A stretch of DNA of 62,616 nucleotides, taken from OCS155 cluster bacterium AG-426-D23 (GTDB lineage: Bacteria > Actinomycetota > Acidimicrobiia > Actinomarinales > Actinomarinaceae). A program made the position numbers and the translations under genes. Location: positions 1 to 62,616 of the forward strand of contig QCNO01000005.1 in NCBI GenBank assembly GCA_003213165.1. The letters run 5' to 3'. Under the pieces are notes generated by a model. That model worked only from the letters and a program-made list of their open reading frames with translations, was not told the origin of the DNA and ran no database searches. Shown piece after piece: positions 782-60,955 of this stretch (within the stretch, counting starts at the first letter, position 1; each line of letters opens with the position of its first letter).

Positions 782-2407
782 GTGACCAAATACATATTTG
801 TCACTGGCGGTGTAGTCTCTGGTCTTGGTAAAGGGATTACTTCTGCATCTCTTGGAAACTTGCTCAAATCTAGAGGCCTATCTGTCGTTAACCAAAAGTT
901 AGATCCATACATTAATGTCGACCCTGACACTATGAATCCATTTCAGCATGGTGAAGTGTTTGTAACTGAGGATGGTGCCACAACCGATTTAGATCTTGGC
1001 CATTATGAAAGATTTACTGGAGTGAATTTACGAAAGGATGCGAATGTAACTACTGGAAGTATTTATAGAAAAGTCATTGAGCGTGAAAGAAAAGGTGATT
1101 ATCTTGGAGCAACTGTTCAAGTAATACCACATATCACTGATGAAATTAAAAGAAGAATTAAAGGCGTATCAAATGAAGTAGATGTTCAAATTACAGAAAT
1201 TGGTGGAACTGTTGGAGACATTGAAATATTACCATTTTTAGAAGCAGCGAGACAAATTAGAAAAGAGTTTGGTTCAGAAAATGTTATGTTTGTTCACGTT
1301 ACATTAGTCCCATTCATTGGCCCAAGTACTGAATTAAAAACAAAACCTACTCAGCACTCTGTTTCAATGTTGAGAAGTTATGGAATAAGTCCAGATTTGA
1401 TAGTTTTAAGATCTGATAGAGACTTAACAGATGAAATTAAAAGTAAAGTCTCCCTTTTTTGCGATGTGGATTTGAGCAATGTCATAAATGCACCTGATTT
1501 GCCTGATATATATGATGTTCCGATTAAAATGCTCGAAGAAGGTCTTGATGCAGCTGTTAACAGTAGGCTTTCATTAAATTCAGGCAAACCAAATCTTGAT
1601 AGTTGGCGTTCAATGATGTCCCTTAAAAACGGTGTAAATAAGAATGTAGAAATAGCTATATTAGGAAAATATTTTGGTTTACCCGATAGTTATATGTCAG
1701 TTGTCGAGTCGTTAAAGCATGCATGCCTACAGAACAAGGTTAACTTGAGTTTGCATTGGATAGATGCTGATAATTTTGAAGTTGAAGAATTATCGAAGCT
1801 TCAAGGGGTTGTAATTCCAGGGGGATTTGGTTATAGAGGAATTGAAGGAAAAATTACAGCTGTTGAGTATATAAGAAAAAATAAAATTCCTTTTTTAGGA
1901 ATATGCTTGGGTCTTCAATGTGCTGTAATAGAATACGCTCGTAATGTATGCGGTATCAGCGATGCAAACTCAAGCGAATTTTCTCAAACAACAAAAAATC
2001 CAGTTATCGATCTTCTTCCTAATCAAAATTTAGAAAAAGATGATGTAGGTGCATCAATGAGACTTGGTACCTATCCTTGCAAAATTAAAAACGAAACTAT
2101 GGCATCTTACATTTACAACAATGAAATAGTTTATGAGAGACATAGGCATAGATATGAAGTAAATAATAAGTTTAGAAATCAATTAGAAGATAATGGTTTA
2201 GTTTTTAGTGGAGTATCACCTGATGAAGATTTAGTTGAGATGATTGAGATTAAAGACCATCCATATTTTGTTGCTTCACAATTCCACCCTGAATTTAAAT
2301 CAAGACCATGGGAGCCAGCCCCTATGTTCAACTCATTTATTGAAGCATCTAAAAAAATAGAGATACCGCAAGAAACAATAGATGATGAATCAAAAGTTAG
2401 AGATTAA
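782..2407 (+). CDS. pyrG: CTP synthase
   Basis: Makes CTP from UTP using glutamine and ATP, the last step of pyrimidine nucleotide synthesis. At 541 residues it is full length. The N-terminal synthetase domain begins with the family signature [17 protein letters not shown]. The C-terminal class I glutamine amidotransferase domain shows the oxyanion glycines PGGFGYRG, the nucleophile Cys in GICLGLQC, and the His/Glu pair in FHPEF. The start is GTG at 782, with no Shine-Dalgarno but a -10 hexamer 6 nt upstream, suggesting a leaderless mRNA. Its end overlaps xerD by about 26 nt. Adjacency to xerD and scpAB is a common actinobacterial order. Confidence 0.98.
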
Positions 2408-46054: not shown

Positions 46055-46427
46055 TATTTTTAATATAAGTTTCTAATATTTCTAGTGCGGACAAATCATC
46101 TATCCTATCATTTTTAGTATTTTTGATTAATTCAGAGGTAAATCTTTCATCTATTTTTGAAATAGGTAAATTATATTTCATCAATTCTTCTTTAATAAAT
46201 TTGTCAACATTTTTAGTCATTCTATTTTCGGATAGATTCATGCCTAATGGATAACCAATAATAAATTTATTTATATCATAAGAATCTACGTATATAGATA
46301 TCTTGTTTCCAATATTATCTTTTTTAATGTCTACGACTTCTATTGGTATAGGTATTTGCGTTTTAATGGTCCTTACTGCAAACCCCATATATCGCTCACC
46401 GTAATCTATTGATAATAAATTATTCAC
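46047..46427 (-). CDS. ruvX: Pre-16S rRNA nuclease YqgF/RuvX
   Basis: RNase H-like protein of 126 residues; processes the 5' end of 16S rRNA in E. coli. Motifs are LSIDYGERYMGFAV (first catalytic Asp), FIIGYPLGMN and IDERFTSE, then D in RIDDLSALEILETY. Although the name suggests resolvase activity, it does not replace RuvC in known systems. It lies 2 nt after alaS. Confidence 0.9.
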   Translation of the reverse strand: MNNLLSIDYGERYMGFAVRTIKTQIPIPIEVVDIKKDNIGNKISIYVDSYDINKFIIGYPLGMNLSENRMTKNVDKFIKEELMKYNLPISKIDERFTSELIKNTKNDRIDDLSALEILETYIKNND

Positions 46428-56959: not shown

Positions 56960-57208
56960 TTATTTAAAAGATATATTCGACTTTAAAATCTCAATCTCTC
57001 CTTTTTTGACAACTAAAGTAACTTTATCCTCTTTTATATTTACAACACGCCCATAAATACCAGAATCAGTAATTACGTTGTCTCCAATTTTTAAATTTTC
57101 TACATATTCTTTATGTTTTTTTTGTCTCCTTCTTTGAGGAATGTACAAAATAACGTAAAAGATTACAAATACAGTAATTAAAGGCAACAGAGTTATGATC
57201 TCATTCAT
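56960..57208 (-). CDS. yajC: Preprotein translocase accessory subunit YajC
   Basis: 82 residues with one N-terminal membrane helix (about 5-24) and the typical cytoplasmic motif QRRRQKKHKEYVENLKIGD, VITDSGIYGRV. Part of the SecDF-YajC complex. Overlaps tgt by 8 nt. Confidence 0.93.
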   Translation of the reverse strand: MNEIITLLPLITVFVIFYVILYIPQRRRQKKHKEYVENLKIGDNVITDSGIYGRVVNIKEDKVTLVVKKGEIEILKSNISFK

Positions 57209-58286
57209 TTAAAAGTCTTTCTTTATAATTATCAAAATCTGAGTTTAATATACTTTCTCTTACTTCGTTAATGATATTTTGAGTCTGATATATATTGTGT
57301 ATTGTTAAATATTGCCATGATGAAGTGGGCTCATTAATTAACAAGTGTCTCATATAAGAAGTAGAAAAATTTAGACACGTATTGCAGTTACAATCTTGCA
57401 CTAACGGTTCTTTAATATTTTTATATTTACTGTTTTTTAAATTAAAATATTTTGCTCTATTAATAATTTTTCCATGACGTGCAATTCTTGCGGGCCAAAC
57501 ACAATCAAACATGTCAACACCAAACTCAATTAAATTTATCAGGCTTTTAATATCTCCAACACCCATAACGTATCGTAATTTATCAACAGGTATTAAATCT
57601 GTAGTAAATGAAACAATCTCATTTCTCTCATTTTCAGTTTCACCTATAGCAAGTCCACCAATTGCATAACCATTAAAGCCATTCTCTATCATATTTTTTG
57701 TAGAAATTTCTCTTAAATCTTTATATTTACCACCTTGAATGATTCCAAATAACGATTGATTTTTATTGTTGTGAATGTCACGTGCTTTTTTTGCCCAAAT
57801 ATTTGTATTGATTATTGCTTGTTTTTGCATATCTTTTGAAGCATTAATATCTATTAATTGATCAAGTATCATTGCAATATTACTATTTAAGGTCTCTTGT
57901 ATTTGAATTGATAATTCGGGAGTCATTAGAAATTTTGTTCCATCATATATATTCTTAAACAAAATACCATCATCTGTTTGAGAGTTTGGAATGGACCAAC
58001 CTTGAAACCCTCCTGAATCAGTTAATATTAATTGATCCCAATTAATATATTCATGCAATCCTCCAAAGTCCTTGATGATGTCTAAACCAGGTCTTAAATA
58101 AAGATGATATGTATTTCCTAGGATAATTTTTGTATCTGAAAGTTGTTCTAAGTTAACTGATTTAATAGAACCTCTTGTAGCAACGGGCATAAAAATGGGA
58201 GTATTAAATTCATGATTGTTAATTTTTACTTTATTTACTCTTGCTTTACCATCTACTGCAAGTAACTCTAAATTGATGTTATTCAT
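57201..58286 (-). CDS. tgt: tRNA-guanine transglycosylase
   Basis: Exchanges G34 for the queuosine precursor in tRNAs for Asp, Asn, His and Tyr. Motifs are VATRGSIKSV, LTDSGGFQ, GGLAIGE, MFDCVWPARIARHGK and the zinc site CNCNTC with a later His (MRHLL). 361 residues. The precursor synthesis genes are not in the window. Overlaps queA by 4 nt. Confidence 0.96.
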   Translation of the reverse strand: MNNINLELLAVDGKARVNKVKINNHEFNTPIFMPVATRGSIKSVNLEQLSDTKIILGNTYHLYLRPGLDIIKDFGGLHEYINWDQLILTDSGGFQGWSIPNSQTDDGILFKNIYDGTKFLMTPELSIQIQETLNSNIAMILDQLIDINASKDMQKQAIINTNIWAKKARDIHNNKNQSLFGIIQGGKYKDLREISTKNMIENGFNGYAIGGLAIGETENERNEIVSFTTDLIPVDKLRYVMGVGDIKSLINLIEFGVDMFDCVWPARIARHGKIINRAKYFNLKNSKYKNIKEPLVQDCNCNTCLNFSTSYMRHLLINEPTSSWQYLTIHNIYQTQNIINEVRESILNSDFDNYKERLLNE

Positions 58287-59272
58287 TTATATTTAAATAA
58301 TACAGCATCACCGAAGCTTAAAAATTTTAAACCTTGATCAATTGCATATTTATACAATTCTTTCCAGTTATCTCCATAAACATTGTGAACAATTGAAAGA
58401 AGTGAACTCATTGGAGCGTGAAAATTCGTAATTAAGTGTGTAGGTAAATTAATTTTTGTATCAGGCAAAATAAAAAGATCTGTATTACCAACTAGATTCT
58501 CTGTATTGTATGCAGTTTCAATTGCTCTAAGAGTTGTAGTTCCTACGCAATAAATATTTTTATTTGATTCTTTATAAGTAATTATTTTGTTATATTCAGT
58601 CTTATCTATTGAATAAAACTCCTTATGAATATTATGATCATTTAAATTTTTTGATTTAACTGGTTTGAACGTATTAAGATTTACATCTAAATTAATAAAT
58701 GCGGTTTTAATATATTTTTTCTCAAATTTTTTAATTAATTCATTAGTGAAATGTAAACCAGCTGTTGGTGCAGCAATCGAAAACCCGCTATCTGAGAATT
58801 GATTGTTATAGAATTTTCTTTTTTCAGGAGTATCTGTAATGTACGGTGGCAACGGAAGTATACCGTGTTTATTTATAACGTCATCAATTTTCATATCAAA
58901 AATACATTTAAATGTTTCATCTAAAACTTCTTGTATTTTAAAATTAAATAAATTTGTTTGGTATTTTTTATTTTTACTTTTTTTATCGGAAGATTTTAAT
59001 AAACATATTGCTTCAAAATCATTTAATTTTTTAGTTATAAATATCTCTAAAGATCCTCCAGTATTTTTCTCTGTCTGAATTCTTACCTTACGTACAGTAG
59101 ATTTATTAAATATAAATAGAGAATCAGTTTCAACATAATCAGGGAACTCTTCAAATGATATTATTTCTTTGTTCTCAGCAATTAAAAGCTTTGAATTTAA
59201 TGGATTTTCATAAGGTTCTTGATTTATAGATGAATTTGGTAACTCGTAGTTTAGTAAACTACTTTTAATCAT
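58283..59272 (-). CDS. queA: S-adenosylmethionine:tRNA ribosyltransferase-isomerase
   Basis: Builds epoxyqueuosine on tRNA after Tgt. Family blocks are the start (LNYELPNSSINQEP), TPEKRKFYNNQFSD, SIAAPTAGLHFT, GTTTLRAIE and NFHAPMSSLLSIV, all in order. 329 residues. Shares one base with the stop of the resolvase-like gene upstream. In most bacteria ruvB lies directly upstream; here it does not. Confidence 0.96.
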   Translation of the reverse strand: MIKSSLLNYELPNSSINQEPYENPLNSKLLIAENKEIISFEEFPDYVETDSLFIFNKSTVRKVRIQTEKNTGGSLEIFITKKLNDFEAICLLKSSDKKSKNKKYQTNLFNFKIQEVLDETFKCIFDMKIDDVINKHGILPLPPYITDTPEKRKFYNNQFSDSGFSIAAPTAGLHFTNELIKKFEKKYIKTAFINLDVNLNTFKPVKSKNLNDHNIHKEFYSIDKTEYNKIITYKESNKNIYCVGTTTLRAIETAYNTENLVGNTDLFILPDTKINLPTHLITNFHAPMSSLLSIVHNVYGDNWKELYKYAIDQGLKFLSFGDAVLFKYK

Positions 59273-59628
59273 TACTTACTATTTAGCAATTTAATAAATA
59301 AATCATAAGACATAGATACAACTTCTGGAATTCCGTCATTTGTACGTCTGGAGTTCCCTTGTTTCCTTTTTAATTTCTTCCAAAAAAGAACTGTATTTTT
59401 ATCTCCTGATTTTTCAATAGCTTTTTCTAAAGATTGATGAATATTTAAATTTTGTCTAGATTTTGCTTCAAGAAAATATTCTTCTTCTTTAACGAATAAT
59501 TGTATATCGCCTAGATCTTTTGATCCACCTTCAGCAAACCTTTGAGCTTTAAAATCAACTTCTTTATTCAATCTATTTACTATGTTTGTTTCGTACGTAG
59601 TTCCCTGTTTTTTTGCCTTATTTACCAT
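59272..59628 (-). CDS. Hjc-like PD-(D/E)XK nuclease, in place of ruvC-ruvA-ruvB
   Basis: 118-residue protein with the order of an archaeal/phage-type Holliday-junction resolvase: KQGTTYETNIVNRL (Glu13), FAEGGSKDLGDIQLF (Asp41), then YFLEAKSRQN (Glu54 and Lys56) and a basic C-terminal half (KKLKRKQGNSRR). The spacing E-D-ExK matches active PD-(D/E)XK nucleases. It sits between yebC (18 nt) and queA (1-nt overlap), where actinobacteria normally carry ruvC, ruvA and ruvB. A role in resolving recombination intermediates is therefore inferred; VRR-NUC or phage-derived nuclease of other function is the alternative. Confidence 0.7.
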   Translation of the reverse strand: MVNKAKKQGTTYETNIVNRLNKEVDFKAQRFAEGGSKDLGDIQLFVKEEEYFLEAKSRQNLNIHQSLEKAIEKSGDKNTVLFWKKLKRKQGNSRRTNDGIPEVVSMSYDLFIKLLNSK

Positions 59629-59646: not shown

Positions 59647-60390
59647 TTATTCAGAAAGTAACGCTTCTAACTCTTTTTCTTCAATATCAAAATTTGCATA
59701 GACATCTTGGACATCATCAAGGTCTTCTAATGCGCTAATCAATTTTGATACTGACTTAAATTTTTCCATATCAATAACTACACCGACATTCGGAATCTGA
59801 GCAATTTCAGCATTTGATGGAACAAACGAATTGTCATTAAATTTTTCATTCATATTTTTAAAATCAGATGGTGGGAATTCAAATGTTACTGATTGATTAC
59901 TTTCTAAAATATCTAAACAATCCGAGTTTAAAGCTAAATCGATTAATTCATCATTATATTTATCAAATTGAAATACAGCTTTTCTTTCAAATAAGTAATT
60001 AACACTCCCTGGCGTACCCATCGAGCCACCATGTTTAGTAAGAGTAGCTTTTACATCAGATGAAGTTCTATTCTTATTATCAGTAAGACAACTAATTAAA
60101 AGTGCAACTCCATGTGGTGCGTATCCTTCGTATGATAATTCGAATATTTCTCCAGTTTCTAAATTTCCATCAACACGTTTTAAAGCTCGTTCAATATTTT
60201 CATTAGGTACTGAATTAGATTTTGCTTTTTGTATTGCTTGGTAGAGCGATGCGTTATTTGCTGGGTCAGTACCTCCATTACGTGCAGCAATTTCTATAGC
60301 TTTAACTAATTTTGCGAATAATTGTCCTCTTTTAGCATCGTTAGCTCCTTTTTTTCGCTTTATAGTAGACCATTTAGAATGACCCGACAT
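59647..60390 (-). CDS. yebC: YebC/PmpR-family regulatory protein
   Basis: 247-residue protein with the hallmark N-terminus SGHSKWSTIKRKKGANDAKR, RNGGTDPANNASLYQAI and YEGYAPHGVALLI. Members are described as transcription regulators and, more recently, as translation factors easing stalls. Overlaps pdxT by 17 nt. The pdxS-pdxT-yebC order is standard in Actinobacteria. Confidence 0.96.
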   Translation of the reverse strand: MSGHSKWSTIKRKKGANDAKRGQLFAKLVKAIEIAARNGGTDPANNASLYQAIQKAKSNSVPNENIERALKRVDGNLETGEIFELSYEGYAPHGVALLISCLTDNKNRTSSDVKATLTKHGGSMGTPGSVNYLFERKAVFQFDKYNDELIDLALNSDCLDILESNQSVTFEFPPSDFKNMNEKFNDNSFVPSNAEIAQIPNVGVVIDMEKFKSVSKLISALEDLDDVQDVYANFDIEEKELEALLSE

Positions 60391-60955
60391 ATTTTCCCTC
60401 TTTCATAAAAGCAAGCAACCATTCGAGATAATAGTTATCATTTGTCAATTCTGGATGGTATGTAAGTGAGACTATATTGTCTTGTGAAACACCAACTATA
60501 TCTTCAATATGTGTAGCAATTACTTTGACATCATTATTTAACGTTCTTAGAATTTTTGGTGCACGTATAAAACAATATATGTCATTATTATTTAAAAATT
60601 TTACATCTGCTTCAAATGATTCATTTTGTCTTCCATATGCATTTCTTTGAATTTCTATATCAATATTCGGGATATGAGTATCTCCGTCAATAACTGATTT
60701 TGAAAGAATTATCGTTCCTGCGCAAGTACTGAGAGTTGGCAATCCTTGTTTTATTTTTGTATCTAATTTTTTATACAAATTATTATATGATGATATTTTC
60801 GACATAGCTGTAGATTCCCCACCTGGAAGTATAATTCCATCTACTTTATCTAAATCTTCAGGTGTTTTTACTAATAATGATTCTAAAGAAATAAGATCTA
60901 AACTTTTTTGATGATCAAAGAAACTACCTTGTAAAGAAAGTATCCCTACTTTCAA
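60374..60955 (-). CDS. pdxT: Pyridoxal 5'-phosphate synthase glutaminase subunit
   Basis: Class I glutaminase passing ammonia to PdxS. GILSLQGSF at the start, LPGGESTAM (oxyanion and substrate site), nucleophile Cys78 in STCAGTIIL, and the catalytic His-Glu in YHPEL. 193 residues. The start is TTG, directly after the pdxS stop. Confidence 0.96.
   Translation of the reverse strand: MKVGILSLQGSFFDHQKSLDLISLESLLVKTPEDLDKVDGIILPGGESTAMSKISSYNNLYKKLDTKIKQGLPTLSTCAGTIILSKSVIDGDTHIPNIDIEIQRNAYGRQNESFEADVKFLNNNDIYCFIRAPKILRTLNNDVKVIATHIEDIVGVSQDNIVSLTYHPELTNDNYYLEWLLAFMKEGKYVGSF

Follow-up and report, generated by a model that had tools for sequence, protein, structure and literature searches.

A small gene of Candidatus Actinomarina that encodes a putative Hjc-type Holliday-junction resolvase occupies the place held by ruvC, ruvA, and ruvB in related genera of the class, and it is probable that a phage junction-cutting resolvase of this type was captured by an ancestor of the genus and took over both the job and the place of RuvABC. 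The gene was identified in a window of 62,616 nucleotides (i.e., the whole stretch of DNA analyzed here), which is contig 5 in a genome assembly of 0.96 Mb and approximately 86% completeness. Replacement of all of RuvABC by a non-orthologous protein, as proposed in the initial annotation, is supported by the shared slot, by the loss of RuvA, RuvB, and RuvC, and by the Hjc-type family and fold of the protein.

Gene order and conservation at the ruvABC site

The resolvase gene (PD-(D/E)XK, PHROG 244; 59272–59628, minus strand) has an ATG start and a TAA stop and encodes a protein of 118 aa. Its upstream neighbor is yebC (59647–60390, minus strand), with a gap of 18 bp between the end of yebC (59647) and the start of the resolvase ORF, and its downstream neighbor is queA (58283–59272, minus strand), the ATG of which shares one base with the resolvase TAA; these coordinates, the gap, and the overlap agree with the tightly packed ORF between yebC and queA described in the initial annotation. 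The neighborhood also includes pdxT (60374–60955, minus strand), which precedes yebC, and tgt (57201–58286, minus strand), the next gene in the conserved row, which frames the ancestral ruvABC site.

At the corresponding place, related genomes of the class carry the row pdxT-yebC-ruvC-ruvA-ruvB-queA-tgt, with yebC directly before ruvC and queA directly after ruvB. ruvC-ruvA-ruvB was intact in 17 outgroup contigs, with yebC found before ruvC in 15 and queA found after ruvB in eight; for the remaining contigs, the fetched stretch ended before the neighbor or the neighbor was not recognized. Within the genus, the order yebC-resolvase-queA was present in 28/28 loci that reach both flanks (the row being pdxT-yebC-X-queA-tgt), while a 29th locus (L022) keeps the order although its yebC is broken, and the 30th locus is cut at a contig end. 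Therefore, in this comparison, which was made within the class, one gene fills the exact gap of three; the proposed position of the resolvase gene is thus borne out by the outgroup row, and a survey of related genomes for the same swap found it in every complete genus locus, with the outgroups keeping ruvABC. In L022 (G022:C47, 1871–2921), yebC was recovered as two tblastn pieces (85 aa, 78%; 129 aa, 50%) with a gap and a shift between them, which may reflect a frameshift in this genome or a fault in its assembly.

Whole-genome family searches found RuvA, RuvB, and RuvC in 0/35 genus genomes (51–94% complete), including the genome from which the window is derived; the three genes noted as missing at this locus are thus found neither elsewhere in this genome nor in 34 further genomes of the genus. 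The same searches recovered RuvB in 23/24, RuvC in 24/24, and RuvA in 23/24 genomes from other genera of the class, and ruvC sits at a contig end in the only outgroup genome lacking both RuvA and RuvB (G048). A wider search for RuvC found matches in 241/254 class genomes outside the genus versus 0/42 inside; among class genomes at least 90% complete, these counts were 198/201 and 0/8, respectively. The 13 genomes outside the genus without a RuvC match, three of which are at least 90% complete, could represent gaps or further losses. No homologue of the resolvase gene adjoining an intact ruvABC was found among 296 class genomes (the sole homologue outside the genus is located on a phage-like contig), and no genome with both ruvABC and the resolvase gene was found among the class genomes surveyed.

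Homologues of the resolvase were identified in 37/42 genus genomes in the wider search (30/35 in the first search). True absence from the other five was considered and rejected; three of these genomes also lack queA and two have a queA match that ends at a contig end. The closest named loci are from single-cell genomes and MAGs of uncultured Candidatus Actinomarina or OCS155 bacteria and encode resolvases that are 78–97% identical, which assigns the window to Candidatus Actinomarina. Across the genus, the resolvase showed a mean amino-acid identity of 83%, compared to 72% for YebC, 62% for PdxT, and 56% for QueA, and a median dN/dS of 0.10, compared to 0.19 for YebC and 0.31 for both QueA and PdxT (these dN/dS values are approximate, as the pairs are diverged). 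By both measures it evolves more slowly than its neighbors and is under strong purifying selection. Its presence in 37/42 genomes marks it as a core gene of Candidatus Actinomarina, and together with its 83% mean identity and its dN/dS of 0.10 this argues clearly against an ORF that arose by chance.

Family assignment and predicted fold of the putative resolvase

The protein matches the HMM of PHROG 244, which is annotated as Holliday junction resolvase, over its full length (residues 1–117; E = 2e-11), and the same HMM is matched by 11/11 aligned members of the resolvase family. The E13-D41-E54-x-K56 pattern pointed out in the initial annotation consists of four residues that are invariant in 27 genus homologues and that align, with the same spacing, to E12, D42, E55, and K57 of Sulfolobus (Sso) Hjc, which are the catalytic residues of that enzyme. 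In Pfam, the window protein has only a match below the cut-off to PDDEXK_15 (phage putative PDDEXK endonuclease). It has no PF01870 (Hjc) match, and because the gathering score of that family is not reached, we refer to the protein as Hjc-like rather than as a PF01870 member; one viral relative scores 20.3 against the PF01870 cut-off of 21.1. No match to PF02075 (RuvC, RNase-H fold) was found in the window protein or in its genome, no match to the RecU Pfam family was found among the Pfam hits of the window protein or of the 11 family members, and neither NCBIfam nor the anti-phage-defense models of PADLOC match the window protein.

PHROG 244 and several GenBank records (L128–L131) name such proteins “RusA-like”. 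We rejected this identity, as RusA is not among the Pfam families matched by any of the 11 family members, and both motifs and fold are of the Hjc type; for PHROG 244, the name looks like a misnomer.

Profile searches against the PDB placed the protein closer to Hjc as more relatives were included. The single sequence (phmmer) matched Hjc at a weak E of 0.9, a profile from the genus alone had archaeal Hjc as its first match (E = 0.04), and adding actinophage sequences improved the Hjc match to E = 2.4e-4. With uncultured viral relatives added, the best match was Hjc 1hh1 (E = 2.9e-6), and matches 1–8 were all Holliday-junction resolvases of known structure (Hjc, Hje, or others); these include 2eo0, which appears in the profile list as “hypothetical protein ST1444” and is titled as a Holliday junction resolvase in the Foldseek list.

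With only genus sequences in the alignment, a first AlphaFold2 (AF2) model was of low quality (pLDDT 65) and gave mixed fold matches; the model was therefore rebuilt with viral relatives in the alignment, which yielded a pLDDT of 83.7 and a pTM of 0.76. This second model predicts helices at residues 10–21, 63–74, and 108–116 and strands at residues 26–30, 42–46, 49–58, and 79–86. In a Foldseek search of this model against the PDB, matches 1–17 were all Hjc or Hje chains (probability 0.90–1.00), with restriction and other nucleases ranking only below them, indicating that the predicted fold is nearer to Hjc than to other PD-(D/E)XK nucleases. As the Foldseek scores are modest (best E = 1.8e-3, TM-scores of approximately 0.47), placement with Hjc rests on the agreement of sequence profile, active-site residues, and fold. 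The viral-extended profile and Foldseek thus both place the protein among Hjc, Hje, and phage Holliday-junction resolvases, as had been proposed from its residue pattern.

Phage relatives and origin of the gene

Outside the genus, the closest relative is encoded on a 47.7 kb IMG/VR contig and shows 50% identity over 121 columns; it was reached stepwise via a class homologue and the relatives of that homologue; two scans of viral sequences with genus patterns had found nothing. This viral protein carries the NLN-HQ and WKK-KRK stretches that are otherwise found in the genus only. In a tree that is unrooted and has long branches, it joins 14 genus sequences with support of 100/99, and the genus sequences form one group with support of 99/95. 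The only other homologue among the 296 class genomes belongs to another family of the class and lies on a phage-like contig (G048:C107), and a search of 397 phylum genomes yielded one more, located beside an ORF that we read as phage-type primase- or helicase-like. Relatives are also carried by named actinophages, often next to primase or helicase genes. On the phage-like class contig (L127, G048:C107:1–9000), the PHROG-244-type resolvase gene (1103–1447, minus strand) adjoins an ORF that we read as WhiB-like, and a 1348-aa repeat-rich ORF, by our reading tail-like, is also present.

The initial annotation had left the source open as phage- or archaeal-type. The phage alternative is favored by PHROG 244, the viral relative, and the tree, while an archaeal source is less supported; because of the 50% identical viral relative, the phage-like contexts, and the relatives in actinophages, we consider phages to be by far the more likely source. 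Transfer in the opposite direction, from the genus to phages, is less likely given the much greater diversity of the phage family. We infer a single ancestral capture and, likewise, the order of gain and loss.

Junction processing without RuvABC and comparison with known systems

RecA was found in 37/39 genus genomes, and one genus genome with 5% contamination has a second, weaker RecA-family match (G013:C50:7629–8240; E = 7e-13, 219-residue frame), perhaps representing a phage RecA-like or contaminant gene. Searches for RecG, carried out in the genome and across the genus, found it in 32/35 genomes, and it is the only enzyme remaining among the branch-migration enzymes searched for. The other motor for branch migration suggested in the initial annotation is thus most likely RecG, a pairing that we infer; RarA or RadA could serve as motor instead. 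RuvX was found in 33/39 genus genomes despite the loss of RuvABC, and the window copy (ruvX/yqgF, 46059–46418, minus strand; PF03652) lies on the same contig as the resolvase gene; RuvX is the second nuclease retained in this genome that is a candidate for this role, and it could contribute to junction resolution.

Many Hjc- and phage-type resolvases work in vitro without a dedicated motor. If the captured nuclease has replaced RuvABC, RecA, which is present, would make joint molecules, RecG or another remaining motor would move or remodel the junction, and the small nuclease, probably as a homodimer, would nick two opposing strands across the four-way junction. By analogy with the chemistry of the family, the nicking would use metal ions bound by E13, D41, and E54, with K56, and a ligase would close the nicks. 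For E. coli, a comparable pairing of RecG and RusA has been suggested (PMC3403352).

PD-(D/E)XK nucleases switch substrate easily, which counts against reading the protein as a resolvase. It could instead be a phage PD-(D/E)XK nuclease that was domesticated for a different role (for example, cutting replication forks, flaps, or foreign DNA), with junctions resolved by RuvX and RecG, or with resolution dispensable in a slow-growing small genome. The variation of substrate specificity across the superfamily, the sub-threshold “phage putative PDDEXK endonuclease” as sole Pfam match, and the retention of RuvX in most of the genus are consistent with such a task; however, we consider it unlikely, given that every one of the closest relatives of known structure is a junction resolvase, that in each complete genus locus the gene holds exactly the ruvABC slot, that none of its neighbors is as conserved, that no anti-phage-defense model matches, and that RuvX usually co-occurs with RuvC or RecU and had no resolvase activity shown as of that report (PMC1193525). 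It is even less probable that the protein is a resolvase in a coincidental place, with streamlining having removed ruvABC and the phage gene having inserted at a later time or at another site before drifting to its position between yebC and queA: although no genome with both genes was found from which the order of gain and loss could be read, and the swap is already fixed in the genus, the location is exact and constant, the gene overlaps queA, and it is unlikely that a lineage with RecA and strong recombination went through an interval lacking any resolvase. That ruvABC is present and was missed, in genomes that are incomplete (51–94% complete), divergent, or contaminated, is very improbable, as three independent families gave 0/35, including in genomes at least 90% complete, the locus was assembled across in 28/30 cases, and the same searches recovered ruvABC genes in nearly all outgroups and controls.

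Capture of a phage resolvase in place of RuvABC would be of interest as Candidatus Actinomarina comprises free-living, abundant, tiny ocean bacteria with strong recombination that nevertheless lack RuvA, RuvB, and RuvC; the homologous-recombination signal of Candidatus Actinomarinales is among the strongest in bacteria (PMC7771536). RuvAB is nearly universal in bacteria. It was reported as missing with RecA present in two genomes only, those of Aquifex aeolicus and Wigglesworthia, both with RecG (Rocha and colleagues, 2005; PMC1193525), and a 2012 survey found RuvA and RuvB missing in <2% of sequenced bacteria, mostly parasites (PMC3403352). The Actinomarinales genome paper (PMC7771536) makes no mention of ruv, Holliday, or resolvase, and a literature search of incomplete coverage found no report of a RuvABC swap of this kind. 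We regard it as fairly likely that a free-living, highly recombining genus resolves junctions without RuvAB or RuvC by means of one domesticated phage Hjc-type nuclease, with RecG or no dedicated branch-migration motor, after an in-place swap. If so, a three-protein resolvasome would be replaceable by one small enzyme with recombination retained, which would allow the need for RuvAB to be tested directly and would provide a clean example of a streamlining genome recruiting a phage enzyme to a core cellular function.

Archaeal Hjc (PF01870) enzymes of Sulfolobus, Pyrococcus, and Archaeoglobus (1hh1, 1gef, and 2wcw) share with the Actinomarina protein the PD-(D/E)XK core, the order and spacing of the active-site residues, and a similar length (~120–143 aa versus 118 aa), and they represent its best profile and fold matches. 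In contrast to these, the Actinomarina gene is bacterial and chromosomal, lies in the ruvABC slot, and scores below the Pfam Hjc threshold, and the C-terminal half of its product (FWKKLKR...NxRRxxDGxPEV) has no matching Hjc sequence. The actinophage resolvases of PHROG 244 (e.g., Microbacterium phage Caron gp47, Propionibacterium phage B22 gp52, and Arthrobacter phage Eileen gp59) belong to the same HMM family and have G9, E13, R30, D38, G40, D41, and K56 in common with the Actinomarina protein, which is 21–27% identical to them versus 50% to the uncultured viral protein; however, these are phage genes, often beside a primase or helicase gene, whereas in Actinomarina the gene belongs to the core genome and is fixed within a row of housekeeping genes.

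Among bacterial systems, the RuvAB-RecU arrangement of Firmicutes and Mollicutes is similar in that RuvC is replaced by an unrelated PD-(D/E)XK resolvase (PMC1193525, PMC3403352). There, RuvAB is kept and recU is located elsewhere, whereas Actinomarina lacks RuvA and RuvB and carries the new gene in the old place; replacement of RuvC by such an enzyme with RuvAB kept is thus already known, and what appears to be new here, judging from the genome sequences, is that RuvAB is gone as well. Aquifex aeolicus and Wigglesworthia (PMC1193525) resemble Actinomarina in keeping RecA and RecG with RuvAB absent; however, these are a hyperthermophile and an endosymbiont, respectively, while Actinomarina represents an entire genus of free-living marine bacteria that recombine strongly and for which a candidate replacement has been identified.
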